From a virus, in IMG/VR virus record IMGVR_UViG_3300005537_000018, positions 1 to 39,042 of that record: a stretch of DNA of 39,042 nucleotides; one strand, 5' to 3'. The position numbers and the translations under genes are program-made. Shown here piece after piece: positions 1 to 38,922 of this stretch. Positions within the stretch are counted from its first letter, which is position 1; each line of letters begins with the position of its first letter. A model generated the notes under the pieces. The model searched no databases, was not told where the DNA came from, and worked only from the letters and a program-made list of their open reading frames with translations.

Positions 1-120
1 CCGTTGATGTTCCTGAATGCTGATTTCGGCTGGTTTACAGCGAGGCCCTTGAAGGCATTGGCGGTCGGCATTTTAGCAAACCGTTGCCTTCAGCCACTCG
101 GCCACGTCACCTTGTTGAAA
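1..120. repeat. Left copy of the 120-bp terminal direct repeat
   Basis: These 120 bp are identical, base for base, to the last 120 bp of the window. Both copies stop exactly at the window edges and both include the same non-tRNA sequence and the same TTTACA site. That pattern fits overlap at the ends of a circular assembly better than a prophage's attL and attR, whose identity would normally be limited to the short core. A genuine direct terminal repeat of a virion genome cannot be excluded from sequence alone. Confidence 0.95.
71..111 (-). other. 5' half of tRNA-Ser(GCU), presumed integration core
   Basis: Read on the minus strand from 111, the sequence gives an acceptor 5' strand GGTGACG, the dinucleotide TG, a serine-type D arm GCCGAGTGGCTGAAGGC, and an anticodon arm with loop TTGCTAA, whose anticodon GCT reads serine AGC/AGU codons. 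Tertiary identity stops just past the anticodon: the next bases are AATGCCG instead of the ACCGT-type strand needed to close the stem, and no variable arm, T arm or 3' acceptor strand follows. It is therefore a tRNA fragment and not a working gene. Phages that integrate in tRNA genes usually carry the 3' half, so a 5' half is unusual. Confidence 0.85.
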
Positions 121-235
121 CCCTTGCAGTTTCCCGCCGGCCTCAATTCCCAGTTTACAGCCGGTTTACAATCGGCCTCCGCAGGGACCGCGGTATCTAG
201 CCGACCGTGGCCCGGGCGCCTAGCGAAGCGAGCAC

Positions 236-268
236 AAAAAAAGCGCCCCAGGCGCGAGCCCGGGGCGC
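236..268 (-). terminator. Rho-independent terminator ending the leftward late operon
   Basis: On the minus strand a GCGCCCC/GGGGCGC stem (arms 262-268 and 243-249) is followed by a run of seven T (A at 236-242 on the plus strand). It lies 31 bp past the stop codon of the last leftward gene. This is the natural end of the long leftward transcription unit and shields attP and the integrase region from read-through. Confidence 0.8.
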
Positions 269-2926: not shown

Positions 2927-5900
2927 CTAGGGAGTTCCCTGCGCCAAGCTGATCGCCGCGGCGTTGCGGGCCGCGCGCTGCGACGCCGTGGCCCCAGCGC
3001 CGATCAAGCCCCGCGCGACCGGCCGCTGAGCGAACGGCAGCTGGCCGTTCTTCAGATTCAGCTTCGCCAGGACCTGCGCGAGTTCAGCGGGCGCGCCGCC
3101 CAGCATTGCGCCGGCTTCGGTGCGCCCTTGGGCCGTCAGTCCGGGCGTGGGCGTCGCAGCGCGCCAGCCCTTGCCGACCAGGTGGCTAACCCCGGCCAGG
3201 AAGGCGCGGTGCGGCTGGTAGGCATAGCGGATGGTCTGGGCCGCCAGCTCGGCCGCCGGCGACGCCCCATCCTGGACGGCCGACTCTGCGCCCACGGCCC
3301 CGGTTTTGGCGTTCGCCTTCGGGCCCCAGTAGTCCTCGAAGGCCTTCATCCTGGTCTGGGTCTGCATTTCCGCCGACAGGGCGGAAGCCTTTCGCGCGCC
3401 GAGCAGCATCTGCAGCTTGGACTGCACGCGGCGCACCTTGAAGAGGTTGAGCAGGCGGTTCGGCTGGCCTTGGGCGCCCATCACCATGTCGTTGGAGAGC
3501 TTCGCCAGGCCGACCTTCATGTAGCGCCGCTGGGCCGGGGTCAGGTCGCTCAGGTGCTGTTGGAAGTCCCGCTCAGACACCCGGTTATCGAAGACTTTCG
3601 CCGCGTCCCTTGAGGCCTGTTGTGCGCTCAGATAGTCGCCTGACGTGTCCAGCGCCTGCCGGTACTTTGGATTGAGCCGCGCGACCTCATCGACGAGGTC
3701 GGCGCGGGTCTGATTGACCAGGCGCGCCTGGTCGGTCCACTCGAGCTTGCCCGTGAAGTACGGCTTCAGCTGATCGTCGAGCGCGCGCTTCATGTAGTCC
3801 CAGGCCTGCGTCTTCGGCGCCATCTGGAACGCCGGCTCGGTCGTGGGTTGCGGGCGCCCGACGTAGTCGTCGGGATGCGGGACATCGGCGGAATCTCCGC
3901 CGCGATAGGCGCGCTCTTCGGCGGCGTTGACGGCATTGAAACGGTCAAGGGCCGCCGGGTCGGCCGAGCGGGCGTAGAGCGCGCGGCCGCGCAGCTCGTC
4001 GCCCATCGCATCATAGAGCGCATTCGTCGGCGGCGCGGCCTCGGCACCGGGGAAATACCCGGCCTCCCACGCCTTCTGAGCAACATCGTCGGGAGCATTC
4101 ACCCCGGTCAGCTTGGCCTGGAACGGCTTGCCAACGTGCCATTGGTCGCCGCCCATGGCGGAAACCTCGCCGCCATCATCGGCGATGCCGCCAGTGTCGG
4201 CGATGAACTTCAGCAGCGACGGGCCTTGCGACGGCGCCCGGGCAGGCCCGCGCGGCGGGGCAAAGCCAACCGGCGCCGCCTCAGCCTCTGCCGCCGGCGG
4301 CGGATAGGACGCCCACTGCTCGGGATCCTCGACGAAAGCCATGCCGAGACCGTTTGGGTCGACATTCTCTTCGCCCATGAGCCGGCGCGCATCTTTGGCC
4401 GCGTCTACCATCGACGGCCTGGTCGCCAGCTTTTCGAGCGCCGGGCTCCAGATCGGCTCGTCGGTGAACGCCTCCTGGTAGGCCGGGTCAGCATCAGCAC
4501 GACCGCGCTCGACCATCTTCTCGACAGAGCCTTGGGCGTCCTGGGGTGAAACCCCGACCGCATCCGAGACCGCGTCCAGCAGCTGGCCGCCGCGGCTCAT
4601 CTGGCGTTCGCCAATGGTGTTACCGAGGGCTTCGCCAGCGGCGTCATCCCGCAAGGCCACCGTGCCCAGCGCCTGCTCGCCGCGCTTGCCCAGCGCCTCG
4701 CCGGCTGTCAGGCGAGGATCCGCCGCCCCCAGCTGGTCGACCGTCATGCCCGTGGGCAGCTTGCTCGCGGCGTAGCGTGCGGCCGCCAGTTGGTCAGGAT
4801 CGAGCGCACCGGCGGGATCCAACCCGGAATCGAAGTCGCGCGCAAAGCCCGCGAGACGCCCGGCGCCATGGAGTATCCGGCCCATGCCAGCGCCGCCAGC
4901 CGCGCCTTCGGCCATCTGTTCCCAGAGCGGCTTATCCGAAGCCCCGGAAGTTAGGGTCGCGGCCTCGGCACCGCCGATCGCGTCGCGGGCCACGGCAGAC
5001 CCGGTGCGAAGCGCCAGGCCGCCGGCTCCGGACGCGCCCACGCCGGCACGGCCGGCCAGGAAGTCCAGCGCCGGCTGCATCAAGCTCGGAGCCTTCGACG
5101 CGGCAAGATTGAGGCCCGACTCGGTCACGCCCATCAGCGGAAGCGACCCGAGAACCTGGCCCGTGAAGCGCCCGGCCATGGCACCCACGTCGCCCTGGTG
5201 ATTGGCGTCGTAGACTTGGCGCTGCGCATCGAGCGCGGCCGAGATGTCGGAGTCGGCGTGCCCCGGGTAGAGCTTCAGGATCGAGTTGGGGATGTCGCCG
5301 ACGCCGGCCCAAAGGCCATGGCCAAAGCCAGGATCCACCTCTTCGGCACCAGGCGTGCGCACCAAGTGCCCGCTGGTGGCATCGATGTAGTACTGGCCCG
5401 GCGAGAACTTGTCGGTCGCATTGCGCTGCACGAAGGGCGACGTCAGCGACCCTGCATCGCCTGTCCCGTCGATGATCCCCGCCTTCATCAGCGTGCGCAG
5501 CGAGCCCACCTGGTTGGCGCCAACGGGCGCGCCGGTGTCGCCGAAGACGATCTGGCCGTTGACGACCTTGACGGTCGGCGGTGCGCCGGCCGCCGGCGGC
5601 GGCGCTTGGCCCGGATCCGGCGTGGGAGTGTCGGCGAAGATACCATCACTGGGCTGCGGCTGCGCTGGAGCTTGGGGCGCCGCGCCGGCCTGAGCATCGA
5701 AGATGCCGTCAGAGACTGGCGGAGGGGGCGCCATCGCCTTCTGCACATAGGCCTGGGTCTCAGGGTAGGGCGGCACGGTGTTGCCATGCGCCATCACCGC
5801 GCCCGGGCCCGCGTTGTAGGCCGCGGCCGCCAGGACCGGGTCCTTGAAGGTGTCCAGCTGCTGCTTGTAGTAGCTGACGCCGCCCTTGATGTTCTGCGGC

Positions 5901-6097
5901 AGGTCCATGGGATCCACACCCAGGTCCTTCGCTGTGCCATCCATCAGCTGGAAGACGCCCTTCGCGCCTTTCGGCGAGACGGCCGACATGTCCGGCGAGC
6001 CCTCGGCCCGCCAGATGCCCAGTGGGCCGGAAGGGTCGACTCCTTGCGCTTGGGCCTCGGCGGCGATCAGCGCCGGAATGTTGACGCCATCGGTCAT
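2927..6097 (-). CDS. Internal virion protein with N-terminal lytic transglycosylase domain
   Basis: The 1056-residue product starts with a lytic transglycosylase (SLT) domain over about residues 5-120: 'IWRAEGS' with the probable catalytic Glu32, 'AKGVFQLM' at 45-52 and '[10 protein letters not shown]' at 92-101. The remainder is long, helix-rich and Pro/Ala-rich, with no other domain I can name. In T7-like podoviruses the corresponding protein (gp16) is ejected with the DNA and opens peptidoglycan. Here it is the last and largest of three consecutive virion proteins, as in those phages. Its ATG overlaps the stop of the gene at 6094 as ATGA. The late position and great length support a structural and ejection role. 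Confidence 0.85.
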
Positions 6098-7695
6098 TTC
6101 GGGCTCGCCTTGGGGTCGAAGCCGGGAATGCCGGCGTAGACCGGGTGCTTCGCGATCCAGCCGTTCAGGCGCTGCTGGAAACTCTGGCCGTTGGCGTCAG
6201 GCGCGTCGATCCGGCCGTAGAGCTGGTTCCACTTATAGGCCTGCTGGGCCACGTCAGCCCCCCGCTGCTGGAGAGCTGTATAGGCCTGGACCAGCCGGTC
6301 ACGGCCGGCCGCGTTCTGGCCCAGCCCCGGCACCGCGTTGGTGAATTGCTGCATCTCGAAGTTGGTGACGCGCGGGAACATGTTCGCCCCGGTGTCGGGG
6401 TTCTTCATGAGCTCCATGGTCATCTGCGCCTGCAGGGCCTTGGCCGCCTGAGCGTTGGTCTGCGTGTTTCCCATGATGTGGACGCCGAGCGAATTCGCGG
6501 CGCTCAGCATGTCCAAGGCCTGGGGTGCGTACTTGCCGCCCTCGTAGCCCTTGAGAAGATTGCCCATGGCCTGGATGCGCGCGATCGTGCCTGGAGCCGC
6601 AGCGCCCGCCTTTTGCAGGGCGTTGTAATTCTCCGCCGCCGCGGCGGAGAGCCCCTTCTTGTACTCAGCATCGGCCGGAGACTGCGAGGTGCCAGGACGG
6701 GCCGTGGGAACCGCCCCAGCGGCCGGAGACGCCGGCGTGGGCCCTGTGGGGGCAGCCGCCGCCGGCGCGCCGACCTGGGGCACGTCCTTGCCCAGCATCA
6801 GGCTGGAGGAGCCGTCCAGGTTCGGCACCGTTTGGTAGGTGCCCATCGAACGGCCCATCGCCTCGGCCTGCGCCGCCGCCTGCACGGCCGCCACCGCGCC
6901 GCCCATCGGGATCACGCCGCCCTTCCCGTCCGGAATCGTGCCGGCGGGGAGCTGCGGCACGAACGAGGGCGCGCCAGGCCCGTTGGGGTCGATGTTGAAG
7001 CCGTTCACCACCTGGTGGTTGGGGACATAGCCCGGAGCGTCCGGCGCAGTCGGATCAACCAGGCGGCCGTTGACGTATTCCGGGTTCGAGACCTTGGCGC
7101 CCAGCGCGCCAGTCAGCTTGTTGATCACCTGGGTGCCCGGCCGCGCAGTGTCGAACTGCGGCTGCGTCGCCTTGAGGACGTCGATAAGCGGCTTGGGGTC
7201 GATGCCCAACATCGGGCCGGCCAGGGCCAGCTGGGCCGCGCGCGGATCGTTGATCGAGGTCAGCGGGCCCGTCCCGGGCGCAAGCGTCGGCGGCTGGTAG
7301 GTGTAGGGCGCGGCGGCCGCGGCCGCCGGCGGCGGCGCGACGCTGGCCGCCGATTGCCTCAGCGCGCCAGTGAGATCGTCGAGGGACGTGGGCGCCGGCG
7401 CTGAGCTCGGGTTCGCGGCGTCGGCCACGCTGGGCGCGGAGACGCTGGGATCGGGGCCCGGGTTGTAGGTCGGCTGGGCGCCCATCAGCCCACGGATCAT
7501 GCCCAGCGAGTTCTGGTACATCTGGCGCTGGGCCAGCAGGTTGCGGGTCGCAAGCACTGCGTCGCCATCGCCGCCGCGCAGGCTGTTGCCTGTGTCGTGC
7601 AACATCGCACCGAACATCATCATCTTGTCCGCGCCGCTCATTTGCGACGGGTCGAATCGCGCGGTTGGCGCGCTCGCGCCGATCATTCCAGGCAT
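6094..7695 (-). CDS. Probable internal virion protein
   Basis: The 533-residue product is rich in Ala, Pro, Gly and Gln. It has a helical N terminus ('[19 protein letters not shown]'), a long low-complexity middle and a helical C terminus ('[21 protein letters not shown]'). I recognise no catalytic motif. Its place between the S74-domain protein and the transglycosylase protein corresponds to the gp14/gp15-type internal core proteins of podoviruses. It probably forms part of the ejected channel. The gene begins two bases after the S74 gene ends and overlaps the next gene by four bases, so the three are very likely translated together. Confidence 0.65.
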
Positions 7696-7697
7696 GT

Positions 7698-8798
7698 TCA
7701 GAGCTTCCCGTAGTCGACCATCAGGTAGCCGCTGGGGTGGGTGACCACGGCCCAGGGCTTGGCCTTCAGCACCTCCTGCGCGATCAGGCCTGCGTGCAGC
7801 ACCGGGCTCCAGAGGTAGCGATAGAGGTAGACGCCAAGGCCATCACGCTCGCCGATCTTCACGACGTCGCGCTTCAGGCGCTCGTCGCTGAACGCAAGGC
7901 CCATGGCCCCAAGGCCCGAGGCCAGCGACCCGCCGGCGGAAATCAGCGACCCCAGCGAACCCATCGGGTCGGTCGTGGTGGTGCTCGACGTGCCGGTCGA
8001 GTTCGAGGTGCCGTTCGCCGTCGTCCCGTGGAAGAGGCCGGTCGGCAGGCCGGCCCACATGCTGTCCAGCGCGCCGGCGGTGGCCAGCGGCGCGCTCGCA
8101 TGCGCCTGGGCCAGGGCCTGCAGGATCTGGCCAATCGACGACTGAGTGTCGATGTTGGTGTTCTCGGCGACGTTCTGGCCCGCGGCATTGGCGGTGAGCC
8201 CCTGCCCGGCGGCGAGCGTGTCGGCCGCCGACTCCTGCTGGCCGGCCTGGGCGCGGTTGGCGTCGTCATTGGCGAGGCCAGCGCCGGCCGTGAAGGCCTG
8301 GTCGCGAAGGCCGGCGTCGAGGCTTGCCCGCCCGCGGTCGATGTTGTCGTTGGAGATCGCGGTCTGGATCGCGCCGCCCGAGCCCCCGAAGGTATCGTCG
8401 TTCGCCAGCGACAGCTGGTTTTGGGCGCGGGTGTAGCCGGCGTTCTTGTCGTAGTCCGCGAGCGAGGTGTTCACCACGTCGTCGGTGTAGGGGTTCATGT
8501 AGCTCTGCAGGTTCGGCAGCAGGCTGTTTGGGCCTACCGCGTTGGGCCCCACGCTCGAGAGGTCGCTGGCGCCGGTCGCGAAGGCGGCCGGCGTGGTCAG
8601 GCCAGCAGCCCCGGCCGCGGCCGTCGTCTGCAGCGGATCTGCGCCGGCGACGAAGCTCGACGGGTCGGCATTCCCAAGGTTGGTCAGCGTCGTGCCCAGG
8701 CCTTGGACCCCGCTGGTCACCCAGTCCGGATTGGTCGGCGTCTGGGTAAGGTTCGTCGCGGTGTTCTGCGTGGTGTTGGTCTTTGAGCTCTTGCTCAT
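7698..8798 (-). CDS. Virion protein with C-terminal S74 (intramolecular chaperone) domain
   Basis: The 366-residue product has a Thr/Asn/Ala-rich repetitive body and ends with a Peptidase S74-type domain at about residues 303-366: 'FSDERLKRDVVKIG', 'GVYLYRYLW' and 'GLIAQEVLKAKPWAV'. In tail spikes and fibres this domain assists trimerisation and cuts itself off with a Ser-Lys dyad; a Ser and a Lys are both present in 'SDERLK'. In this gene order the protein lies next to internal virion proteins and away from the tail fibre genes, so it may be an ejection or tail-tip protein. Its start overlaps the upstream stop as ATGA. Confidence 0.75.
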   Translation of the reverse strand: MSKSSKTNTTQNTATNLTQTPTNPDWVTSGVQGLGTTLTNLGNADPSSFVAGADPLQTTAAAGAAGLTTPAAFATGASDLSSVGPNAVGPNSLLPNLQSYMNPYTDDVVNTSLADYDKNAGYTRAQNQLSLANDDTFGGSGGAIQTAISNDNIDRGRASLDAGLRDQAFTAGAGLANDDANRAQAGQQESAADTLAAGQGLTANAAGQNVAENTNIDTQSSIGQILQALAQAHASAPLATAGALDSMWAGLPTGLFHGTTANGTSNSTGTSSTTTTDPMGSLGSLISAGGSLASGLGAMGLAFSDERLKRDVVKIGERDGLGVYLYRYLWSPVLHAGLIAQEVLKAKPWAVVTHPSGYLMVDYGKL

Positions 8799-9163
8799 CG
8801 GAGCGCCTTCCAGAGTTCGCCGTCGCGCAGCTCGAACCCGTGGCGCAGCAGCGCGCGGCTCCAGCCTCTGCGGCCATTGATCGTCGCGAAGTCGGCGCCC
8901 ATGACGCGGCCCCAGGCCGCGACGCCGAAGTGCATGGCGATGAGTTCGCGAAGGTCACCGCCTCCGAGCAGCACGTGGAGCCGGCGGACGTCGCCGTTCT
9001 CCAGCTGGGTGACCATGGCTGACCGTTCGCCGCGCCAGAGCTGCGCCAGGCCGGAGCTGACGCGCCCGAAAACGATGTCCTCGCTGAGATCGCCAACCGC
9101 GATGGCGGGCACGAGCCAGCGCCTGCAGAGCAGCCATTCGTCGACCAGGTGCGGGACCATCAA
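8795..9163 (-). CDS. Small virion-module protein, weakly GNAT-like
   Basis: The 122-residue product has a C-terminal pattern 'NGRRGWSRALLRHGFELRDGELWKALR' (here quoted in outline: NGRRGW, LLRHGFE, ELWKAL) reminiscent of the last part of GNAT folds. Podoviruses often carry a small GNAT-like protein at this point, between the tail hub and internal virion genes (the T7 gp13 position). The acetyl-CoA binding motif is not clear, so no enzymatic activity can be claimed. The ATG overlaps the stop of the tail hub gene by four bases and its own stop overlaps the next ATG, consistent with coupled translation. Confidence 0.55.
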   Translation of the reverse strand: MMVPHLVDEWLLCRRWLVPAIAVGDLSEDIVFGRVSSGLAQLWRGERSAMVTQLENGDVRRLHVLLGGGDLRELIAMHFGVAAWGRVMGADFATINGRRGWSRALLRHGFELRDGELWKALR

Positions 9164-10974
9164 CCGCGGCGGCCGCGCTGCTTACCTTCGACCGAGATCC
9201 GGCCGATCCGGGCGAAGCTCGGAGCCGAGAAGCCCTGGAACGTGAACTGGGCGAAGCGGCCCTCGGCCTTGAAGTCGAAGAGGCTCTGGCCGGGCGCGAC
9301 CGCGAACGGCCCATAGGTGGTGATCGGCCCTTGCGGATAGAGCTGGGTCGGGACCGTGACGTTGACCGGGCCGACCTGGTCGGCGCCGCCGAGGTCAGGC
9401 CAGAGCTCGCGGATCAGGATCGCCTTGTTGGGATCGAGCGAGAGCAGCGACGTCGTCGCCAGCCACGCCAGCGGCGCGCCGTCGGCCGAGTTTCCGGCCT
9501 CGTGGAAGTAGACGTGGCCGTCGATCGTCGTCCCGATCGGGAAGAGCGCCGGCTCGGCATCGAACATCGCCGTGCGCGCCGGCAGCACGCCCATGAGCGG
9601 GCGGCCACGGTACCAGGAGCCGAGATCCTCGCCGGCGTAGGCGAATGCGATGTAGCGGGAGTTGTCCAGGCCATCGCGCTTGTCGGGATAGTCCCAGCGC
9701 ACCTCGGTGTATTCGGCGTTGGTCGACGCCATGACCTTGTCCGCCTGGGCGGGCGAGAGGTTGTTCTTGAAGTCGTTGCGGATCGGGCAGTCGATCGGCA
9801 TCACCGCGCCGCCCAGCGAGTAGCTGTGGAACTGGCGGTCGGCGCTCATCCAGAAGGCTGTGGAATCCGCCACAGCCGCCGCGTTGGGCCCGATCAGGCC
9901 GCAGCGGTCGCCGATCTTGTCGAAGCTCCAGACCTGGCCGACCTGGCCGATGTAGGTCCCGAGGAAAAGCGCTGTGCTGGTCCACACCAGGACATAGCGG
10001 CCGATCACCTTGCCGCCGACGATCCGGCCACCGCCCGGAAGGATGTACTCCCGCGCCGTCGAGCTCGACGTCGCCGCCGTCGCCCAGGTCGTCTCATCGC
10101 CGAGCGCACAATGGCGGATGCAGAGCGGGTTGTAGGTCCCGTTCTCCTGGGTACAGCCCAGCGCCATGACGAAGCGCTGCGGCGTGACCAGGATCTGAGC
10201 GACTTGGGTCGGCGCAGCGGTCAGCGCGACGGCGCGGGTCGCGAGCACGTTTGACCACTCATAGATGCCGCCATTGCGGGGCGACGCGAGCAGCTTCTGT
10301 CCCCATGCCGCCAGCGACCAGGTGCGCGCGAAATAGTCGCCCGTCGAGGGCGAACCCCAGCCGCCGACGCCGAAGCCGCCGGTCCCGAAGCCGATCGAGC
10401 CCGTGCCGTCCTGCGCGCCCGCCGGCAGCACCGTCTGCGGCACCACCACGATCGTGGATCCGCCGCCGCCCGCGACCGTCGAGGTCGCGGGCGCGGTGAA
10501 CACATACGACCAGGTGTTGGCGTCGATCACCGTGATGACGAAGGGACCGCCGTTTGGCGTGATGCCGCCGATCGCCGCGGCGTTGGCGACGATCACCGAG
10601 ATCCCGTTCGCGTAGCCGTGGGCCGCATGGCTCACCGTCACCACGGCCGAGGCGTTGGTGACGCTCAGCGGATTGGAGCCAAGCAGCGCCTGCGGGCCAA
10701 AGGGCGTGATGTCGGCCAGCACGCCGCCCTGGAAGAGCTGCAGGTTGGTGTGGGTCCCGAAAGCGACGTCCTGGACGCCGGTGTTCTCGGTCCAGGCCAG
10801 CACCGCCCGGCAGACGCCGGTCAGCAGGGCCGTCGTCAGGCTCTCCCACCCGCCGATCGTCTGCGGCCGCTTCTCCCGGAAGCGCATGTTGCAGATGTCC
10901 GACCAGGCGGGCGACGCCGAATAGGTGGTGTCGTCCGAGTTGAGGCCCGGAGGGATGTCGAACTGAATATCCAA
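9160..10974 (-). CDS. Tail hub / DNA stabilisation-type protein
   Basis: The 604-residue product resembles the P22 gp10-type 'packaged DNA stabilisation' or tail hub proteins of podoviruses. It opens with 'FDIPPGLNSDDT', followed by 'NMRFREKRPQTIGGWES', a common N-terminal arrangement in this group. It has propeller-like beta repeats throughout and ends 'ARIGRISVEGKQRGRRG', similar to the family's C terminus. Such proteins close the portal vertex and bind tail needle or fibres. The frame starts with TTG at 10972-10974, since no ATG precedes the conserved N-terminal motif; no clear Shine-Dalgarno is visible. Recognition is by pattern, so the exact family is moderately certain. Confidence 0.65.
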   Translation of the reverse strand: MDIQFDIPPGLNSDDTTYSASPAWSDICNMRFREKRPQTIGGWESLTTALLTGVCRAVLAWTENTGVQDVAFGTHTNLQLFQGGVLADITPFGPQALLGSNPLSVTNASAVVTVSHAAHGYANGISVIVANAAAIGGITPNGGPFVITVIDANTWSYVFTAPATSTVAGGGGSTIVVVPQTVLPAGAQDGTGSIGFGTGGFGVGGWGSPSTGDYFARTWSLAAWGQKLLASPRNGGIYEWSNVLATRAVALTAAPTQVAQILVTPQRFVMALGCTQENGTYNPLCIRHCALGDETTWATAATSSSTAREYILPGGGRIVGGKVIGRYVLVWTSTALFLGTYIGQVGQVWSFDKIGDRCGLIGPNAAAVADSTAFWMSADRQFHSYSLGGAVMPIDCPIRNDFKNNLSPAQADKVMASTNAEYTEVRWDYPDKRDGLDNSRYIAFAYAGEDLGSWYRGRPLMGVLPARTAMFDAEPALFPIGTTIDGHVYFHEAGNSADGAPLAWLATTSLLSLDPNKAILIRELWPDLGGADQVGPVNVTVPTQLYPQGPITTYGPFAVAPGQSLFDFKAEGRFAQFTFQGFSAPSFARIGRISVEGKQRGRRG

Positions 10975-10986
10975 GGAAATCGGACG

Positions 10987-11409
10987 CTAGGGCGCCTGGT
11001 TGGCGAGGATCTGCGCCGCGCGGCCGCCGGCGATCAGCCCGGCGGTCTGCAGGGCCTCGACGCCGGCGATGGTGTTCGCGTCATCGAGATGCACGGCCGG
11101 CACGTGGTTGAGCATGTTGAGCCAGTCGGCGATCGCCATGCTGGCCTGCCCGGCCGTCAGGATCGCGATCCGCTCGGCCGATGTGAACAGCAGCAAGAAC
11201 TCATAGCTGCTGAGGATCACCGACGGCGGGGGCGGCGGCGCGGGCTCAATCGGCAGATAGCCCTTGCCGACGAACTGCTCCGGCGTGGGGTCCAGCGCCT
11301 GGTCCAGGTCGGCCAGGCTCTCATCGGCCAGGCCGACGAGCTCGGCCGGCAGCGGGGCCGGATCGCCCACGTGCGAGCCGTCGGAGACGTTGATCTCTTG
11401 ATAGTCCAT
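10987..11409 (-). CDS. Tail-module hypothetical protein
   Basis: The 140-residue product has a Pro-rich centre ('EPAPPPPPSV') and a helical C-terminal half ('FLLLFTSAERIAILTAG', 'WLNMLNHVPAVHLDD', 'GVEALQTAGLIAGGRAAQIL'). The second half resembles small proteins found next to phage tail fibre genes, but I cannot name the family. The ATG at 11407-11409 shares its A with the stop TGA of the adhesin gene upstream. A longer open frame continues further upstream in the same frame but lies on top of the adhesin gene and is discarded. Confidence 0.6.
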   Translation of the reverse strand: MDYQEINVSDGSHVGDPAPLPAELVGLADESLADLDQALDPTPEQFVGKGYLPIEPAPPPPPSVILSSYEFLLLFTSAERIAILTAGQASMAIADWLNMLNHVPAVHLDDANTIAGVEALQTAGLIAGGRAAQILANQAP

Positions 11410-12041
11410 CAGGGCCTCATGAACACAGCCAGCACAAGGCCGGCACCAAAGACGCCGCCGGCGCTTTCCGCGCCGCCGCCCCCCGTTCCGGGTACAGAGG
11501 AGCCTCCGCCGTCGCCTCCGCGGTAGGGAAGGTTCGCAGGCGCGCCTGCGCCGCCCGAACCGAGCGCAACAGGACCTCCAAGGCCCCCTCCCGTTCCAAG
11601 CCCAGGGTTTCCGACGTGTGAACCGGTAAGGCCTCCGGTCGACCCTGCTAGATTCACGTCCCCGCCGCTTGCCACGCCGGGGGAACCGCCCCCGTTGGCG
11701 GCCTTGCCAGCCGTGACGACCGTGCCATCCGGGAAGGTAAGGACGGTGTCCCCAGAAAGAGGAACGACGATCGAGACCTTCGATGCCGGCGTCAGGAATT
11801 TGGTGATCTCTGCGTAGGCCCCGGACGATCCGGCGACGGTGCCATTCGAGCCGGTCCCCCCGGCGCCCCACGTCACGAACTTCCAGTACCCGGACGTGGG
11901 CGGGCTGAAGGTGTAAGCGGCGGCCGCGGCCGGAAAGCTGAACGGCTGCTGCAGGTTCGCCTGGCCGAAACGGCCGGCGATCTGATGCTGCGCGATGTTC
12001 GGCCGGCGCTGGATGCCCTGCGCGGCGATCGACTTCGTCAT
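11409..12041 (-). CDS. Glycine-rich tail adhesin-like protein
   Basis: The 210-residue product has a short conserved N terminus ('AAQGIQRRPNIAQHQIAGRFG'-like, given in outline), then a beta-rich start 'WKFVTWGAGGTGSNG', then a long glycine-rich region from about residue 95 to 200 with clusters such as 'GGGLGGP' and 'GTGGGGA'. Glycine-rich blocks of this kind form polyglycine-II bundles in receptor-binding adhesins of tailed phages. Its place next to the tail fibre gene supports a receptor-binding role. It starts at the ATG immediately after the upstream TAG (TAGATG). Homology is inferred from composition, not from a specific motif. Confidence 0.6.
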   Translation of the reverse strand: MTKSIAAQGIQRRPNIAQHQIAGRFGQANLQQPFSFPAAAAAYTFSPPTSGYWKFVTWGAGGTGSNGTVAGSSGAYAEITKFLTPASKVSIVVPLSGDTVLTFPDGTVVTAGKAANGGGSPGVASGGDVNLAGSTGGLTGSHVGNPGLGTGGGLGGPVALGSGGAGAPANLPYRGGDGGGSSVPGTGGGGAESAGGVFGAGLVLAVFMRP

Positions 12042-12452
12042 CTAGAGGTCTTCGCCAGTGACATCGAGGATGACGCCGCCGGCGAGCGCAACGCCGATCC
12101 CCCAGTAGAGGCTATCGCCGGGCGCGAGGCGCAGGCCTTGGGTCTCGGTGTAGCCGAGATCCGTCGGCGCGACGGCGGTGATCTGGTTGACGGTGGCGGC
12201 GGCCATCAGCGCGTCGTTGATGAAGTTGAGCGTCACGCCGTTGTCGGGCGACCGGTAAAGCTGGATCTGAGTGGCGGTGACGGTCGCCCTGGCCTTGGCC
12301 TTGACGCTGTAAACGACTGAACCGTTGGTCCCGGCGGCGAAGGCCAGGACCGAGTTGGTTGCGTCATTGAGCGTGACCTTGGCGGCGGTCGCGACCGACG
12401 ACTTGGAGCGCAGGCCCTGCGCGGAGACAATGGCGTTTGGGGACGTGGACAT
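12042..12452 (-). CDS. Putative small virion/tail protein
   Basis: The 136-residue product is beta-rich, with alternating small hydrophobic residues such as 'SVVYSVKAKARATVTATQIQL' (outlined) and 'GDSLYWGIGVALAGGVILDV'. It resembles a decoration or fibre-associated protein, but I do not recognise the family. The ATG at 12450-12452 has an AGGAG site six bases upstream. An ATG at 12477-12479 in the same frame would add nine residues but would place that ribosome site inside the gene. It lies between the tail fibre and adhesin genes, which suggests a role in the tail or host contact. Confidence 0.55.
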   Translation of the reverse strand: MSTSPNAIVSAQGLRSKSSVATAAKVTLNDATNSVLAFAAGTNGSVVYSVKAKARATVTATQIQLYRSPDNGVTLNFINDALMAAATVNQITAVAPTDLGYTETQGLRLAPGDSLYWGIGVALAGGVILDVTGEDL

Positions 12453-12556
12453 AGAGCGCTCCTGGGAGGAGACCGGCATGCGGTCGCGCGCCCCTGCAGG
12501 GCGGCGTCATGGCGGCGTTGTCAGAGGGTTGGCGGGAGCTCGAGCGCGCGACGGCG

Positions 12557-13195
12557 CTAGAAGGAGACCGCCATAGCGATCATGAAGCCCTTGAGGGCCG
12601 CGAGATCGGTGAGGTCGGTGCTGGCGACCTGGCCCCAGAGGGCGTTGGCTCCGTTGGACTTCAGGAACCACCCGATGGTGCCCGCGCCCTGGCCGGGCAG
12701 GATTCCGGCGTTGGCGGTGAAGGCCAGCGCGTCGGCATAGGCCTTGGTGGCCGCGTCGTTCGGATTGATGGGCGCGCCGAGATTGGTGAGCGTGCGGCCG
12801 CCGAAGTTGGAGCCCTGGACCCGGTTCACATTGGCCGCGTCGCACGAGATCCGCGCGAACTCGCCGGGATCCAGCGCCACGGTCGCGCCGGCGCCCGTGG
12901 TCAGCGTCAGCGCCGCGGCGCAGCTGTTCAGGACGTCATAGGACTTGGAGGCGCTCGGGATGGTCACGGTGAACGGCCCGGCGCCGGTGAACTTCACCAT
13001 CGCCGCGCGCGCCTGGTCGTCGGCCGCATTGGCCGTGGTCAGCGCATAGTTGCCGGTGAGCGCGATCGTCTCGAAGCCGGCGATCGCGAAGTCGACGTGG
13101 TTCATGACCACGTTCAGCTTGTCGCCCCAGGTGTTGACGTTCTCGCCGTCGAACTGGAGCTCGAAGCGCAGAGAAGAGGACCAGGAGGAAGGCAT
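12557..13195 (-). CDS. Tail fibre protein
   Basis: The 212-residue product has an N-terminal beta-rich domain ('LRFELQFDGENVNTWGDKL'), a central beta-rich stretch, and near residue 160 the sequence 'TLTNLGAPINPNDAATKAYADA'-type motif (outlined: NLGAP, DAATKAYADA). That motif is typical of repeated segments in phage tail fibres. The likely role is host recognition, attached to the tail hub. The ATG at 13193-13195 overlaps the upstream stop as TGATG; a longer frame upstream overlaps the neighbour and is not used. It is short compared with classical fibres, so the receptor tip may be supplied by the next two gene products. Confidence 0.7.
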   Translation of the reverse strand: MPSSWSSSLRFELQFDGENVNTWGDKLNVVMNHVDFAIAGFETIALTGNYALTTANAADDQARAAMVKFTGAGPFTVTIPSASKSYDVLNSCAAALTLTTGAGATVALDPGEFARISCDAANVNRVQGSNFGGRTLTNLGAPINPNDAATKAYADALAFTANAGILPGQGAGTIGWFLKSNGANALWGQVASTDLTDLAALKGFMIAMAVSF

Positions 13196-13446
13196 CAGAC
13201 GATCGTCGCTCCTGTGTCGGCGCGGTACCAATGGACGCCGTCCGACCAGACGGCTGTCTTCAGGTCCGTGGCGAAGGCGAAGGTGCTTCCCGAAGCCTTG
13301 GCCGACGTCGCGTTCAGCGCGGCCGAGGTGGTCAGGAAGGTGGGAATGAAGCCCTGTGGGGCCTCGAAGGCGCTCAGGCGCGCGTCCAGCTGGGTGAGGA
13401 ACAGCGCGAGCTCAGGCGGCAGGCCCGCAGCCGGGACAGCGCCCAC
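13195..13446 (-). CDS. Small tail-module protein
   Basis: The 83-residue product has a helical N-terminal half ('PPELALFLTQLDARLSAFE') and a C-terminal half 'TFAFATDLKTAVWSDGVHWYRADTG' (outlined) of the kind seen at ends of fibre-associated proteins. I cannot name a family. It starts with GTG overlapping the TAG of the adaptor gene and ends as TGATG with the tail fibre gene, so it is translated as part of a chain. Confidence 0.55.
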   Translation of the reverse strand: MGAVPAAGLPPELALFLTQLDARLSAFEAPQGFIPTFLTTSAALNATSAKASGSTFAFATDLKTAVWSDGVHWYRADTGATIV

Positions 13447-14069
13447 TAGACGACGGCGCCGCCGGCGGAGCCGACGAGAGGCCCGCGCAGAGCGTCCTTG
13501 GCCTCTTCGTCATTGATCGAGGACAGCAGAGCTCCGAACTGGCCGCCGTAGCGGTCGGTGTTGTTGTCGTCTTCCAGGAAGCGGAAGAGCGCCTCGAGCG
13601 CGCCGTAGAGGTAGAGGAAAGGATACTTGGCCAGCACCACGTTGGTGTCGCCGGCGTTCACCAGTGGCGTCGGGGCTTGGTAGTACAGCATCTGCCCCGT
13701 CCACGTGCCCGAGAAGAGCGGCGCGAAGGCCAGGGTCGATGTGCCTTCCACAGAGAAGGCGGTGGGCCGATCGGTGGGCGTCAGCTCCATGGTCATGTCG
13801 ACCAGCTCACCCGAGTCCTTCAGCTGCAGCCGGTGTCGCGGACTGCCGTCGATGTAGAACCGCTTGGCGGCCAGGAAACCGGTCGGCGCCGCGACGGTCT
13901 CGGCGTTGATGATCACCGGAGAGCGTGCGTAGAGCACAGGCGCGCGAAGCTTTCGGCAGATCTCCTGGTGGCCCCAGGCGATGAAGTCGGGGATCTGGGC
14001 CGAGAGGCTGGTCTTGGTCGACCAGTCGCTGATCGCCTGCTCAAGGCCGGCCAGGTTCGCGAGGCTCAA
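13446..14069 (-). CDS. Head-tail adaptor protein (SU10-type)
   Basis: The 207-residue product fits the SU10-like phage adaptor family that joins the portal to the tail. It has an N-terminal helical part 'LEQAISDWSTKTSLSAQIPDFI' (outlined), a core 'QEICRKLRAPVLY', a beta-rich middle 'LVDMTMELTPTDRPTAFSVEG', and a C-terminal helix 'PFLYLYGALEALFRFLEDD'. The combination of an acidic C-terminal helical region with 'YPFLYLYGALE' is characteristic in my recollection. It starts with TTG at 14067-14069, overlapping the upstream TGA as TTGA. Neighbours (capsid, portal and tail hub on either side) support the call. Confidence 0.75.
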   Translation of the reverse strand: MSLANLAGLEQAISDWSTKTSLSAQIPDFIAWGHQEICRKLRAPVLYARSPVIINAETVAAPTGFLAAKRFYIDGSPRHRLQLKDSGELVDMTMELTPTDRPTAFSVEGTSTLAFAPLFSGTWTGQMLYYQAPTPLVNAGDTNVVLAKYPFLYLYGALEALFRFLEDDNNTDRYGGQFGALLSSINDEEAKDALRGPLVGSAGGAVV

Positions 14070-14416
14070 CGGATCTTGCCGTTCACCAGGGCCATGTTCC
14101 CAGGCGCGGTGCGCAGGAAGCGATAGTCCGGGTCCATGAGCTTCTGCAGGAGCTTGTCGGGGTAGAGGTCAGGGCGCCAGGCGTCCCAGCCCTCCTCGTT
14201 CAGCCACTTGTCGCGGAAGATCGTCGGAATGAACGCGACCGACCTCAGCTCGCGGGTCGGCGAATAGCCGTCCGTGTCGTTGTAGGTGGCCCTGTTGGCC
14301 TCGATGATCGGCGCGATGTCCTGCACCGAGTGGATGAGGAGGCCTCCCTCCCCATCCGGCTCGGAGTAGACCTCGACGTCGCCCTCGAACTCGGGGGCGA
14401 TGAGGAGCTCTCGCAT
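14066..14416 (-). CDS. Conserved head-module protein of unknown function
   Basis: The 116-residue product has an acidic beta-rich N terminus ('APEFEGDVEVYSEPDGEGG') and an aromatic-rich C-terminal half ('FRDKWLNEEGWDAWRPDLY', 'DPDYRFLRTAPG'). I do not recognise the family, though small proteins like this are usual between the capsid and adaptor genes of SU10-like podoviruses. Its ATG overlaps the upstream stop as TGATG and its stop overlaps the TTG of the adaptor gene. Confidence 0.6.
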   Translation of the reverse strand: MRELLIAPEFEGDVEVYSEPDGEGGLLIHSVQDIAPIIEANRATYNDTDGYSPTRELRSVAFIPTIFRDKWLNEEGWDAWRPDLYPDKLLQKLMDPDYRFLRTAPGNMALVNGKIR

Positions 14417-14811
14417 CAGGCCTTGGTCGCGTCGGTCTTGGTCGCGTCGGTCTTGGGCGCGTCGGTCTTGGGCGCGTCGGTCTTGGGCGCGGCCGGCGTT
14501 TCGGCCGCCGGCGCGGGAGCCTCGACTTCCGAGCCGTCGACGATCTCGGCGAAGCCGCGCTCCTGCAGGTCCTCCGCGATCGTGCGATCGACGCCCGTCA
14601 CGATGCGCCCCTTAGGGTGCTTGGCGTGCCGGCCGGCGTTGCTCGCGCCGGTGAAGATCTTGCCGTGGCCCTTGAAGGTCACGCGGTAGTCCACCAGCAC
14701 GCCGCTGAGCTTGGGCCCGGCCACCAGGCCGTTGTCCGAGCCGTCGTACTTCTCTTCGTCGTCGTCGAAGACGTCCTGGTCGATGTCGATCGCTTTGTCG
14801 TTCGAGGCCAT
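14416..14811 (-). CDS. Head-module protein with Lys-Thr-Asp repeat tail
   Basis: The 131-residue product has an acidic N terminus ('DVFDDDEEKYDGSDNG'), a central domain ('GVLVDYRVTFKGHGKIFTG'), and a C-terminal tail of five consecutive five-residue units of the form PKTDA or TKTDA. The tail is encoded by a 15-bp tandem repeat. The function is unknown; position after the capsid gene suggests a decoration or head completion protein. I chose the ATG at 14809-14811 because GGAGGG lies four bases before it; an ATG at 14821-14823 would put that site inside the gene. It begins past the terminator that follows the capsid gene, so it may depend on read-through or its own promoter. Confidence 0.65.
   Translation of the reverse strand: MASNDKAIDIDQDVFDDDEEKYDGSDNGLVAGPKLSGVLVDYRVTFKGHGKIFTGASNAGRHAKHPKGRIVTGVDRTIAEDLQERGFAEIVDGSEVEAPAPAAETPAAPKTDAPKTDAPKTDATKTDATKA
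14421..14490. repeat. 15-bp tandem repeat encoding a pentapeptide tail
   Basis: Nearly identical 15-bp units built on the plus-strand sequence CGTCGGTCTTGGGCG (or GGTCG at the end) run for about 70 bp. On the coding (minus) strand they encode PKTDA/TKTDA. The unit length is a multiple of three, so unit gain or loss keeps the frame. Confidence 0.85.
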
Positions 14812-14881
14812 GTGGCCCTCCATAGAAAACGACCGGTCCCGAGGGGCCGGCCGCGCTGCGTTTCAGGTCGGAAATGCCCCG

Positions 14882-14912
14882 AAAAACGCCCCGGGAAATG
14901 CCCCGGGGCGTT
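14882..14912 (-). terminator. Rho-independent terminator after the capsid gene
   Basis: On the minus strand AACGCCCCGGG (14902-14912) and CCCGGGGCGTT (14885-14895) form an 11-bp perfect stem with loop GCATTT, followed by TTT. It begins 18 bp after the capsid stop codon. A terminator here would make capsid, scaffold and upstream messages more abundant than the tail genes. The T run is short once the stem is counted, so partial termination is likely. Confidence 0.8.
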
Positions 14913-14930
14913 TAGCTTGAGCGGTTCGGC

Positions 14931-15890
14931 CTACTGGATGTCGGCGACGTTGAAGTGCGCGCGCTCGTTGGCGACCTCGAGGGCGGCTTCGTGCGTCATG
15001 ATCTTGCGTTGGCTGTCGCCAGTCTTCGCCAGATCCTCCGTCTTGAAGCCATCGAGGGTGGCCACCGAGGCGTACTCCGGGTCGATCGCCAGCATGTCGC
15101 GGGTGAACGCGTAGGGGTGCGGCACCAGCATCAGCTCGCCGAAGTCGCCCACGTAGACCTCAGCCCCAGCGATGATCGTCGCCTGGTTGCGGCCCTTCAC
15201 CTCGGCGCGGATGTCCGCGATGCCGGTGAACGCCGAGAACTCCTGCTTCAGCGAGCCGCCCATCATGGCGATGGAGGGGTCGGCACCATTGCCGAAGGCG
15301 GTGTTCCAGGTGGTCTTCAGCAGGGACTCGGTGAAGGTGCGAAGCGTGCCCTGGGTGGGGGCCGCGACGACACCGCCGCCGAAGCCGCCGTTGGCGCCGG
15401 AAGGGCCGCGGGAGACGTTGGTCACCATCCAGGCCAGGAAGCCGCCGGTCTTACGCGGCGTGGTCCCGGGCGTTTCAGAGATCGAGGCCTGGGCCGAGCA
15501 GAACACAGCTTCCATGTCGCGGCGGAGCGACAGGCCCTTGATCACCTTCTGGCGGTTCACTTCCGACTTGCGGCCGGCCTTGTCGACCACCTCCTGGGTG
15601 CGCGAGACGCCCAGGGTCTTGCGGAAGATCTGGGCGTAGTTGCTGACGCGCAGCGGGGTGTTGGCCGCGTCCAGCGACGCCACGTCGTCGCCTTCATAGT
15701 TGGCGTTGGCGGCGTTCACTGCGTCGAGCTGCTCCGTCTGCCACTCGTGCAGGCGGGCCGTCGCCTTGGTCTTCTTCATCGCCGAGATCAGCGGCGTCTT
15801 CGAGGGAGAGACGCGATAGATCACGTCCTCCAGGTCCTCGCGGTTACCGGCGATGTTCATCGTCGTCGCGAGATTGGTGGGAGCAGCCAT
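14931..15890 (-). CDS. Major capsid protein, SU10-like
   Basis: The 319-residue product matches the SU10 major capsid protein group (DUF5309). Features are an N terminus 'GNREDLEDVIYRVSPSKTPL', then 'SYAQIFRKTLGVSRTQEVVDKAG'-type sequence (here 'NYAQIFRKTLGVSRTQE'), a central 'RDMEAVFCSAQAS', and a C-terminal stretch 'VYVGDFGELMLVPHPY'. It should form the HK97-fold shell. It follows the scaffold gene by two bases and the downstream terminator at 14882-14912 fits a highly expressed gene. Length is typical for the family. There is no sign of an N-terminal propeptide; the scaffold is a separate gene. Confidence 0.9.
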   Translation of the reverse strand: MAAPTNLATTMNIAGNREDLEDVIYRVSPSKTPLISAMKKTKATARLHEWQTEQLDAVNAANANYEGDDVASLDAANTPLRVSNYAQIFRKTLGVSRTQEVVDKAGRKSEVNRQKVIKGLSLRRDMEAVFCSAQASISETPGTTPRKTGGFLAWMVTNVSRGPSGANGGFGGGVVAAPTQGTLRTFTESLLKTTWNTAFGNGADPSIAMMGGSLKQEFSAFTGIADIRAEVKGRNQATIIAGAEVYVGDFGELMLVPHPYAFTRDMLAIDPEYASVATLDGFKTEDLAKTGDSQRKIMTHEAALEVANERAHFNVADIQ

Positions 15891-15892
15891 GC

Positions 15893-17005
15893 TCAGTCAT
15901 CCTGTGAATTTAGGAAGGCCACCGCGTCCTCGATCGAGCCCGTCTTGCGGAACTTCGAATCGGCCGCGGCGGCCACCTTGGCTTTGGGGTCAGTCGGCCC
16001 AGCAGCGGCGGCGCCTCGAGCGAGGGGCCGCGATACCGGCGGGACCGGCTTTGGGGCGGGGTTCGGAGCGGACTTGGCCTGCGCGCGGTCCCACAGCATC
16101 GCCTTGCGGGCGATCACCATGTCCTGCGCGGAGATGTCCCGGATGACCTCGGGGTCGTAGCCCGTGTCGACCAGGTACTTGGTGATCTCCGTTCGCCGGG
16201 CGACGCCCTCCTTGGGGTCGACCAGGTCTGGAGCAAGCTTCTCGAGCGCCTTGAACTCGCTGGCGACGTAGACCTCTCGGGCCTTCGCATCAGCGACCTT
16301 CGACGCTTCAGCGGCCTTCTGGAGCTGCCCTCGCTCAGCATCATATTGCGCGCGGGCGAGCGACATCGCCTCGGCGCCATGCTGCTGGCCATAGGCCACC
16401 CAGTCGGGGTTATCGCCCCAACGGCTGCGGAAGGTCTGTACGGCCTGCGGGAGCCAGGTCTTCACCTGTTCCGCAAACTGCTGGATCCCCGCGAGCTCCT
16501 TTTCGGCCGCCGCGCGGACCTGCGCGGCCTCTTCCTTCGCCTTGGCGGCCGCATGTTCCCGCGGACCTTCCTGGGCAAGCACGGCGGCCTGCAGGGAGGG
16601 CGGGAGCTGATCGAACTCTGCCTTGGCGTCCTGTGACCAGTACTTGGGCGCGGTGAGCGGCTCGGCGGCCGTCTCCTCGCCTTCGTTTTGTTCACCATCC
16701 TGGGTCTGGTTTTCGGCCTCGCCAGTGGCGTCTCCGGGCTTGGTCTCGCCCTCGGATTGGGTTTGCTCGCCGGCCGCCGGCGCGGCGGCCGCGGCAGGCG
16801 CGGACGCGGGCGCCGCGGCGCTCTCTTCGTCCTCGTGGGTGTCGAGTTGGGCCGTGGCCTCCTCGATCGAGAATCCACCACCCCCGCCGGTCTCATCGTC
16901 TGGCGCGTATGCGACAGCCGGGCCGCGCAGCATCGGCTGGGCGCTGGCGGACGAGAGGAACATGGCGCGCGATTGCGCGCCCGCAGCGGTGTCGCTCGGG
17001 GTCAT
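15893..17005 (-). CDS. Scaffolding protein
   Basis: The 370-residue product is acidic and highly helical. It has a low-complexity Glu/Ala/Gln-rich section at about residues 60-115, a 'YWSQDAKAEFDQLPPSLQAAVLAQE' stretch (outlined), a long coiled-coil-like middle rich in Ala, Glu and Lys, and a C-terminal helix. Composition and position immediately upstream of the capsid gene are those of podoviral scaffolds, which guide procapsid assembly and leave before DNA packaging. I saw no protease domain, so it should exit intact. It starts at the ATG at 17003-17005 with AAGGT nearby. Confidence 0.85.
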   Translation of the reverse strand: MTPSDTAAGAQSRAMFLSSASAQPMLRGPAVAYAPDDETGGGGGFSIEEATAQLDTHEDEESAAAPASAPAAAAAPAAGEQTQSEGETKPGDATGEAENQTQDGEQNEGEETAAEPLTAPKYWSQDAKAEFDQLPPSLQAAVLAQEGPREHAAAKAKEEAAQVRAAAEKELAGIQQFAEQVKTWLPQAVQTFRSRWGDNPDWVAYGQQHGAEAMSLARAQYDAERGQLQKAAEASKVADAKAREVYVASEFKALEKLAPDLVDPKEGVARRTEITKYLVDTGYDPEVIRDISAQDMVIARKAMLWDRAQAKSAPNPAPKPVPPVSRPLARGAAAAGPTDPKAKVAAAADSKFRKTGSIEDAVAFLNSQDD

Positions 17006-17035
17006 GGGTACCTTGTGGGTGGCTGGAGAGCTCGG

Positions 17036-17323
17036 CTAGGGCTGCGTGAGCCCCTCCTCCGCGATCCCATCCCGGGCCGCGAGGAGCATCGCCTCGGCGT
17101 CCTTGCCCGCTCGGATCGTGCGGAGGAAGGCAGCCTTCACGGCCGCCAGATTGTGCATCGACATGTGCAGCTTCATGACCTTGGCGTCAGCGCCGATCGG
17201 CGTCTCGCGCCAGGTCTTCAGGAGCGCGTCCTCGACGGCCTGGAAGGCCGCTTCGGTCTCGACAAGCTCAGCCTCGGCGCGACGGCCGCGGCTGACATCA
17301 TGGCGCAGATCCCGCTCGCTCAT
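17036..17323 (-). CDS. Small helical head-module protein
   Basis: The 95-residue product is nearly all helical, with charged and Ala-rich stretches ('ELVETEAAFQAVEDALLKTW', 'HMSMHNLAAVKAAFLRTI'). I do not recognise the family. The ATG at 17321-17323 overlaps the stop of the 59-residue gene upstream as ATGA; the longer open frame upstream overlaps that gene and is rejected. Its place between portal and scaffold suggests a part in head assembly. Confidence 0.65.
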   Translation of the reverse strand: MSERDLRHDVSRGRRAEAELVETEAAFQAVEDALLKTWRETPIGADAKVMKLHMSMHNLAAVKAAFLRTIRAGKDAEAMLLAARDGIAEEGLTQP

Positions 17324-17499
17324 CGCACGGCGCTCCCTTGCCGCCACGGCGACCGCCCTCGGGCCTTCAGTACGGAATCGAACACGAACCGCCTCCGGCC
17401 GAGCTGAAAGCCCCAGAACGCCGCGTCCGACAGCAGCCAATCAACCAGGCCGACGTAGCGATAGAGGCCGCCCTCATAGTCGACCACGAAGAGCCGCAT
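17320..17499 (-). CDS. 59-residue protein between portal and scaffold
   Basis: This short gene encodes 59 residues: an N terminus 'MRLFVVDYEGGLYRYVGLVD', a 'WLLSDAAFWGFQLGRRRFVF' stretch and a basic tail. Its ATG (17497-17499) shares a base with the portal stop as TGATG, and its own TGA overlaps the next ATG as ATGA. It fills the 175 bp between portal and the next gene exactly, which is strong support for a real coding region. It is aromatic-rich and looks folded, with no clear membrane segment. I do not recognise a family. Confidence 0.75.
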   Translation of the reverse strand: MRLFVVDYEGGLYRYVGLVDWLLSDAAFWGFQLGRRRFVFDSVLKARGRSPWRQGSAVR

Positions 17500-19769: not shown

Positions 19770-19782
19770 GCTTAGGCCAGGC

Positions 19783-20085
19783 TCACAGGTACTCGGTCAC
19801 GGTGGCGTTGCCGTTGGCCGCGCCCCAGATGCACTGCACCTGGCCGCGATAGCCCCAGATCTCGACCGTCGCCGGCGTCGTGCCCGTGGGCTGGATCGCG
19901 TAGCTGAAGTTGGTCGCCGAGGGCACACCCGGGCCCAGGAGCACGTAGAGGATCGCCGTCGAACTGTTGGCGATCGCCAGCGAGGGACCAGACGCGTCGG
20001 CCCGGCGAAGGGCGTTCGCGCCGATCAGCAGCTGAGGGGTGGCTAGGCTCGCCTTCGTGGTGGCGACGGCGTCGGTTGCGGCCAT
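19783..20085 (-). CDS. Small beta-rich virion-module protein
   Basis: The 100-residue product is beta-rich ('LAIANSSTAILYVLLGPG', 'ATVEIWGYRGQVQCIWGAA') and resembles short capsid- or portal-associated proteins found between terminase and portal. I cannot name a family. The ATG at 20083-20085 overlaps the terminase stop as ATGA, and it ends 13 bp before the portal start. Confidence 0.65.
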   Translation of the reverse strand: MAATDAVATTKASLATPQLLIGANALRRADASGPSLAIANSSTAILYVLLGPGVPSATNFSYAIQPTGTTPATVEIWGYRGQVQCIWGAANGNATVTEYL

Positions 20086-36397: not shown

Positions 36398-37080
36398 AGG
36401 GTCTCCGGATCGCGTACACGGCGGACGAAATGGCATGGCTCGAAGCCAATCGGCAGATGCCCATCGCGGACTATCACGTCGCGTTCTGTGAGGTCTTCGG
36501 CCGAGGGAACGTCTCAGCCCAGAATCTGCATGCCCTTCGCAAGCGGAAAGGCTGGCGAACCGGGCGCACAGGCCATTTTTCCCGGGGGTCGACGCCCGCC
36601 AACAAGGGCCAGAAATGCGCGCCTGGCGTCGGCGGCCGGCACCCAAATGCTCGCGCGACGCACTTCAAGAAGGGCTTCCGAGGCGGCGTCGCTGCCAGGG
36701 TCTACAAGCCGATCGGCACCGAACGCCTCAGCAAATCAGGCTACTTGGAGCGCAAGATCAATGACGACATGCCGCTGCAGGCACGCTGGCGCGCAGTTCA
36801 TCTGATTGAGTGGGAGCGCGCGCACGGCCCGATCCCCGCCGGGCACTGCCTGAAGTGCCTCGACAACGACAAGACGAACCTCGACCCGGCGAACTGGGAG
36901 CTGATCTCCCGTGGGCTCATGCCGCGCCTGAATGGGGGCGCCAGGAAGACCCTTCCTGCCTATGACGCCGTCGCGCCTGAACTCCGGACCGCTGTGCTCA
37001 CCGCAGCCAAAATCGACTATGCAGCGCGCCAGCTTCGCAAGCGCGCTCCGGGCACCGAGACTGATGAGGCTCGCGGCTGA
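36394..37080 (+). CDS. HNH endonuclease
   Basis: The 228-residue product has an N-terminal helix-turn-helix-like region ('YTADEMAWLEANRQMPIADY', 'SAQNLHALRKRKGWRTGRTG') and a C-terminal HNH domain: 'RWRAVHLIEWERAHGPIPAG', 'HCLKCLDNDKTNLDPANWEL', where H136, H151, Asn162 and Asn167 fit the HNH metal site. Proteins of this layout in phages are homing-type or packaging-associated nucleases. It is not adjacent to terminase, so an early or selfish function is likelier than packaging. It starts with GTG at 36394. Confidence 0.8.
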   Translation: MKGLRIAYTADEMAWLEANRQMPIADYHVAFCEVFGRGNVSAQNLHALRKRKGWRTGRTGHFSRGSTPANKGQKCAPGVGGRHPNARATHFKKGFRGGVAARVYKPIGTERLSKSGYLERKINDDMPLQARWRAVHLIEWERAHGPIPAGHCLKCLDNDKTNLDPANWELISRGLMPRLNGGARKTLPAYDAVAPELRTAVLTAAKIDYAARQLRKRAPGTETDEARG

Positions 37081-38899: not shown

Positions 38900-38900
38900 C

Positions 38901-38922
38901 GGTTTACACCGCGACAGCTAAG
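38901..38922. other. Right part of attP before the terminal repeat
   Basis: These 22 bp follow the integrase stop codon and carry one GGTTTACA copy (38901-38908), matching those at 32-39 and 163-170. On the circle they are continuous with position 1, so they belong to one arm of the attachment site. Confidence 0.65.

Follow-up and report, generated by a model that had tools for sequence, protein, structure and literature searches.

Which half of a host tRNA gene does an integrating phage carry in its attachment site and, if it is the 5' half, what drives the rebuilt tRNA? The question is raised by a viral record of 39,042 nt (hereafter the window, meaning the whole stretch of DNA analysed), in which half of a serine tRNA lies beside an integrase gene. 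The original statement that the 3' end is what most tRNA-targeting phages restore is in line with the Islander account, in which 3760 of 3919 islands have a 3' fragment and 159 a 5' fragment (PMC4383910). According to the relevant passages of a review, rebuilt tRNAs in bacteria retain the original promoter with very few exceptions; use of the 5' half, with expression via the integrase promoter, is described there for archaeal pTN3-like integrases and is seldom met in bacteria (PMC8371274). Restoration of the 5' half is documented but rare, and the window phage joins this known minority.

Attachment core and proposed mechanism

The window has an exact direct terminal repeat of 120 bp (1-120 = 38923-39042), which we read as the overlap of a circular genome of 38,922 bp. 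The features on either side of this junction are listed below.

37703-38899, plus strand: tyrosine integrase gene (int), open reading frame as listed, probable start ATG 37790 (Pfam Phage_integrase 5.8e-12, phrog_1 4.1e-29)
38901-38911, plus strand: GGTTTACACCG, putative integrase arm site from a repeat search
32-42 and 38954-38964, plus strand: GGTTTACAGCG, putative integrase arm site from a repeat search
72-111, with a copy at 38994-39033 in the terminal repeat, minus strand: attP core, 5' half of tRNA-Ser(GCU) (tRNA 1-40), 40/40 identity to Caulobacterales tRNA-Ser(GCU)
75-77, minus strand: anticodon GCU (ARAGORN places the anticodon at 35-37 of the host tRNA gene)
112-120, minus strand: TTTCAACAA, immediately 5' of the tRNA half, common to phage L003 (alignment)
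153-170, plus strand: pair of GTTTACA repeats, putative arm sites flanking the tRNA half on its 5' side
194-202, minus strand: candidate -10 GGCTAGATA, 82 bases from the tRNA (two-block model)
217-224, minus strand: candidate -35 GCTAGGCG, best site under the two-block model within 200 bases upstream
243-268, minus strand: hairpin resembling an intrinsic terminator, with T7 after it (1 found, against 0.5 expected by shuffling)

In a BLAST comparison with 72 tRNA genes from the loci examined, positions 111 to 72 were 100% identical to bases 1-40 of the tRNA-Ser(GCU) of genomes G642 and G001, and an exact match of 40 bases is far above chance expectation. The identity takes in the acceptor 5' strand, the D arm, the 5' anticodon strand, all seven bases of the loop and one further base. 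It had been placed at 71-111, of which 72-111 stands and base 71 (A in the phage and T in the host, minus strand) does not; it does stop just past the anticodon as proposed, at tRNA base 40, one base beyond the anticodon loop. Of 60 genomes sampled within one Caulobacterales family, 29 contain an exact copy of the 34-base core corresponding to tRNA 7-40. Phage L003, whose integrase is 76% identical, carries these 40 bases too, equally far from int. Aligned with the window, it has TTTCAACAA and the paired repeats TGTAAACCGGCTGTAAACTG in common, while the other flanking stretches diverge. The persistence of the same core despite differing flanks points to a kept function rather than a recent accident, and the proximity of the core to the integrase gene (it starts 94 bp past the int stop) together with the GTTTACA repeats around it makes a good attP. 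The pair at 153-170 is identical in L003, and in G642 it occurs upstream of the whole tRNA; this layout suggests that the repeats are integrase arm sites. The stretch 72-111 is very probably the core of the phage attachment site, as part of an explanation that we hold with high confidence as a whole. A viral contig (L049, 4215-4254) ends exactly at the first base of a tRNA-Ser 5' half beside int, as if cut at the tRNA.

The mechanism that we propose, and which taken with all its steps we consider well above even in probability, is the following. The integrase would recombine the attP core with the anticodon-loop region of the host tRNA-Ser(GCU) gene, strand exchange presumably taking place within the loop around 75-77. 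The phage 5' half and the host 3' half would then form an identical tRNA which, because the shared sequence is the 5' half, would receive a phage leader, so that its leader and control region would be phage DNA from 112 onward. The host promoter would keep the orphan 5' half and be aimed into the prophage, antisense to int. A host-type tRNA promoter would come from the phage, probably at 224-194, with the putative terminator at 268-243 shielding it from the minus-strand genes.

As for the rest of the genome, ARAGORN finds no tRNA gene in the whole window, which rules out a whole phage-encoded tRNA. Minus-strand structural genes at 2927-21632 (portal phrog_1216, major head phrog_1328, terminase phrog_2 and an ejection protein) suggest a podovirus-like phage. 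The structural proteins have no matches in the stretches taken from G321, G642 and G615 or in L003 and L007. A nucleotide search of 37000-39042 against phage records returned no matches, and protein searches returned 20 phage and 7 plasmid records, every one below 60% identity.

Junctions of two integrated relatives

Two sets of genomes were searched with the window integrase: 398 of one order, 12 of which had a match at E 1e-40, and 390 of one family, 14 of which had one at 1e-50. The exact phage was found in none of them, the closest integrase being 46% identical. A strict orphan-half pattern (5' half followed by AAAA) was rejected after finding 0 of 398 genomes: it is too strict, as the orphan of G642 ends in AAACC. 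In G642, which has the nearest integrase (46%), an orphan 5' half of tRNA-Ser(GCU) at 1969474-1969513 adjoins an int on the opposite strand, and the whole tRNA-Ser(GCU) lies at the other end of the element (1978250-1978339). The order is native upstream DNA, orphan half, element with int, repeats, leader and, 8.7 kb on, whole tRNA. The two copies have tRNA 1-40 and about 27 leader bases in common (94% over the match). The remaining three matches to tRNA-Ser(GCU) in this genome have 73-76% identity, and the tRNA therefore looks single-copy. As regards the empty site, the two flanks were never found together in relatives. The 8.7-kb element (L122, 9475-18250) codes for int and for resolvase-like and sensor-kinase-like proteins, named by eye, and is perhaps a satellite or a decayed prophage.

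An equivalent arrangement is found in G321 (integrase 41%), in which a 39.8-kb prophage coding for terminase and portal proteins sits at tRNA-Thr(UGU). The whole tRNA has its 5' end facing int, and its upstream DNA is the end of int, while an exact 39-base copy of tRNA 1-39 lies 39.8 kb off. The DNA upstream of this orphan resembles that upstream of the tRNA-Thr of G401, G408 and G405 and is of the promoter type native to tRNA-Thr. In relative G119 the two chromosomal flanks are separated by 1.6 kb that contains a gene, and in G402 by 2.4 kb. Downstream of the orphan (L027), a short open reading frame noted by eye starts roughly 90-105 bases past the tRNA-Thr 5' half and could be read in a lysogen from the freed host tRNA promoter.

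In both relatives the 5' half and the upstream DNA of the whole tRNA come from the element. The two junctions foreseen for the window phage, a host 5' half and promoter left joined to element DNA and, at the opposite end, a whole tRNA with element DNA upstream of it, are thus both seen in these relatives, and the window phage would presumably use the same site in its own host. If the whole scheme is true, a host tRNA, apparently single-copy in G642, comes to be transcribed under prophage control, so that lysogeny alters the control of part of the translation machinery and the end of the prophage could not be lost by simple deletion.

A candidate promoter on the element side

The phage had been predicted to supply a promoter from 112-300. 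A sigma-70 consensus scan of 1-400 found no promoters. A two-block model built from the upstream regions of 35 native tRNA genes, with the single genome G321 supplying 27, reads GCTTGCCC-N14-gGCTATagg, and its best match in the window is GCTAGGCG-N14-GGCTAGATA (224-194). The predicted region therefore does contain a host-like site, of modest score, and no match to the sigma-70 consensus. The distance of 82 bases is within the range of native tRNA-Ser(GCU) genes, 11 of 34 of which have the end of the -10 at 68-90 bases, and the native tRNA-Ser(GCU) genes of G001 and G633 have the same unusual CTAGGC-type -35 as the window candidate. In G642 the element side reads TTGCCC-N15-GCTATGG, as against TTGCCC-N15-GCTATTAG at the native gene. 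The hairpin at 243-268 separates the minus-strand genes from the candidate.

Over 200 bases, the element sides score 17.7 (G642), 15.8 (G321), 15.2 (G615), 14.9 (L053), 14.1 (L051 and L052), 13.1 (L004), 12.6 (window), 11.2 (L054) and 10.3 (L003), with 95% and 99% points of the phage background at 11.0 and 12.7. The window site is in the top 1.4% or 7.9% of that background with one or the other training set. The model became weak once native tRNA-Ser(GCU) and tRNA-Thr(UGU) regions were left out of the training: p was 0.079 for the window, 0.027 for G642 and 0.25 for the native G321 site, and the aligned site of L003 was no longer its best. Nine 5'-half elements scored above thirteen 3'-half control regions (U 101 of 117, p 0.005, uncorrected for relatedness; L052, a near-copy of L051, was left out of this comparison and of the codon test below). 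In this comparison one of the thirteen controls, L014 (14.9), scored above every phage-side site. Among four 3' ends of tRNA-Ser-type int genes, an extra control outside these counts, three were unremarkable and L003 had p 0.045. On these sequence comparisons we consider it likely, on balance, that the phage supplies a promoter for the rebuilt tRNA. By eye, the native tRNA-Ser(GCU) of L006, L141-L144 and L146 has a long leader with a GGG-loop-CCC hairpin; the G642 element side keeps such a hairpin with altered pairs, and that of L003 is different.

For the tRNA-Thr type, int lies directly upstream of the rebuilt tRNA in the same direction, and the promoter-like site falls within the last int codons. 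Across five int proteins, 93 columns have an invariant residue with four- or six-fold degenerate codons, and 13 of these use a single codon. GTT, CGG and CTA are invariant exactly at the motif, giving uniform codons in 3 of 4 motif columns versus 10 of 89 elsewhere (Fisher p 0.008, with motif columns picked after seeing the data). Only one of the 20 invariant Leu columns is uniform, the one in the motif, and it uses CTA, which makes up 19 of 215 Leu codons. Shared ancestry of the five tRNA-Thr-clade genes weakens this frozen-codon signal.

The arrangement of the tRNA-Thr type also lends itself to another explanation, in which the 5' half is likewise restored but transcripts reading through from phage genes supply the rebuilt tRNA, with no dedicated promoter, much as the archaeal pTN3-like case is described as relying on the integrase promoter (PMC8371274). 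We regard this as unlikely, given that transcription from the minus-strand genes of the window would meet a terminator-like hairpin before reaching the tRNA half, that int points away, and that G642 has a clear host-type promoter at this place. Far less probable still is that the half serves as a recognition core only, with another phage or host tRNA doing the work as in tRNA-dependent lysogeny. Such phages exist (PMC10865867), and mycobacteriophages of this kind resemble the window phage in that lysogeny needs a tRNA supply from the phage side, but they carry a full tRNA gene and a core of ~10 bp, whereas the window has no tRNA gene and a core of 40 bases; moreover, G642 and G321 both have a complete rebuilt tRNA, apparently the only copy in the case of G642. 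That the 40 bases are a passive host tRNA remnant (imprecise excision or an assembly chimera) unrelated to integration fits the absence of a lysogen of the exact phage from the genomes searched, but is most improbable in view of the identical 40 bases at the same place in the diverged phage L003 with different flanks, the repeats around the core and the other tRNA halves that other family members hold at the equivalent place.

Known systems and the choice of tRNA half

Restoration of the 5' half with a phage-supplied promoter, the reading preferred here, has several partial counterparts. Like the 5'-fragment islands of Islander, the window has a tyrosine integrase beside attP and an attP in which a tRNA gene is represented from its 5' end through the anticodon loop, that is, an anticodon-centred site; a displaced 5' fragment with a whole tRNA around the integrated copy is found in its relatives G642 and G321. 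The passages on those islands count them with no description of promoter supply, for which the window offers sequence evidence. The archaeal pTN3-like (suicidal) integrases likewise have the 5' half of a tRNA gene as attB and leave the rebuilt tRNA on element transcription signals, but their attP is inside int, which is split on integration, whereas in the window int is intact and the core lies past its stop. Islands in dusA and prfC (IMEVchUSA3, SXT) substitute their own sequence for the 5' end of the target gene and provide a new promoter (for dusA, PMC8409611, PMC4482086), which for IMEVchUSA3 is reported from a lacZ fusion (PMC8409611); unlike the identically rebuilt tRNA, these targets are protein-coding and have an altered N-terminus. 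Elements at tRNA-Gln(UUG) (G204, G356, L050) have a related integrase and an anticodon-loop site but restore the 3' half, and hence keep the native promoter. The literature searched, which took in few subscription journals, yielded no account of a Caulobacterales phage using a tRNA 5' half or of a tRNA promoter inside int. Specialists will be interested mainly in the switching of polarity within the family and in the putative gene-embedded promoter.

The 33 related integrases were labelled by the tRNA half near int or by the direction of the whole tRNA, giving 12 of the 5'-half and 21 of the 3'-half type, sorted by clade. Both junctions stand behind the label for G321 and G642 (5') and for G208, G204, G356, G234 and G023 (3'), and one end for the others. 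A tree, from which L091 (internal stop codon) was left out, needs three changes, at least two of them forced by well-supported branches, and none of 500 shuffles was as low. The tRNA-Ser clade (window, L003, L049 and G642; support 100/100) and the tRNA-Thr clade (6 rows; 98/99) are of the 5'-half type and the tRNA-Gln clade (12 rows; 98/96) of the 3'-half type, and tRNA-Thr(UGU) is used in both polarities (G321 vs G208). Some labels have particulars of their own. G615 looks 5'-type by orientation, although a second half was not found in 115 kb; in G150 a 5' half of tRNA-Gly lies beside int, with no whole tRNA-Gly in 90 kb; G174 has a weak second copy of 23 bases; the 3' label of G234 (L021) comes from its second copy (46 bases at 93%), with no tRNA match within 900 bases of int; and the tRNA-Arg(CCU) half of L054 was named by eye, the BLAST match being to 21 bases of a tRNA-Arg. 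Among 18 further viral loci, L211, L212 and L215 each contain a complete tRNA-Gly(UCC) whose 5' end is turned towards a related integrase (3233-3306, 3122-3195 and 3157-3230, respectively) and are probably further 5'-half elements; L200, L207, L209 and L216 look 3'-type, and 11 have no usable tRNA match.

A tentative reading, to which we give somewhat less than even weight, is that one alphaproteobacterial integrase family switches between tRNA halves and that each 5'-half clade evolved or captured a dedicated host-type tRNA promoter, which would lie in the gap between terminator and arm sites in the tRNA-Ser clade and in the last int codons in the tRNA-Thr clade. If this is true, int of the tRNA-Thr clade also serves as the promoter from which an essential host tRNA is expressed, and lysogens of the tRNA-Ser type would transcribe int antisense from the freed native promoter. 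With both polarities at the same kind of site, the question of why the 3' half is usually restored becomes directly testable. In five elements of the tRNA-Gln type (L015, L081, L086, L087 and L090), an open frame of 403-484 codons runs into or past the tRNA 3' half, so that int overlaps the attachment site.
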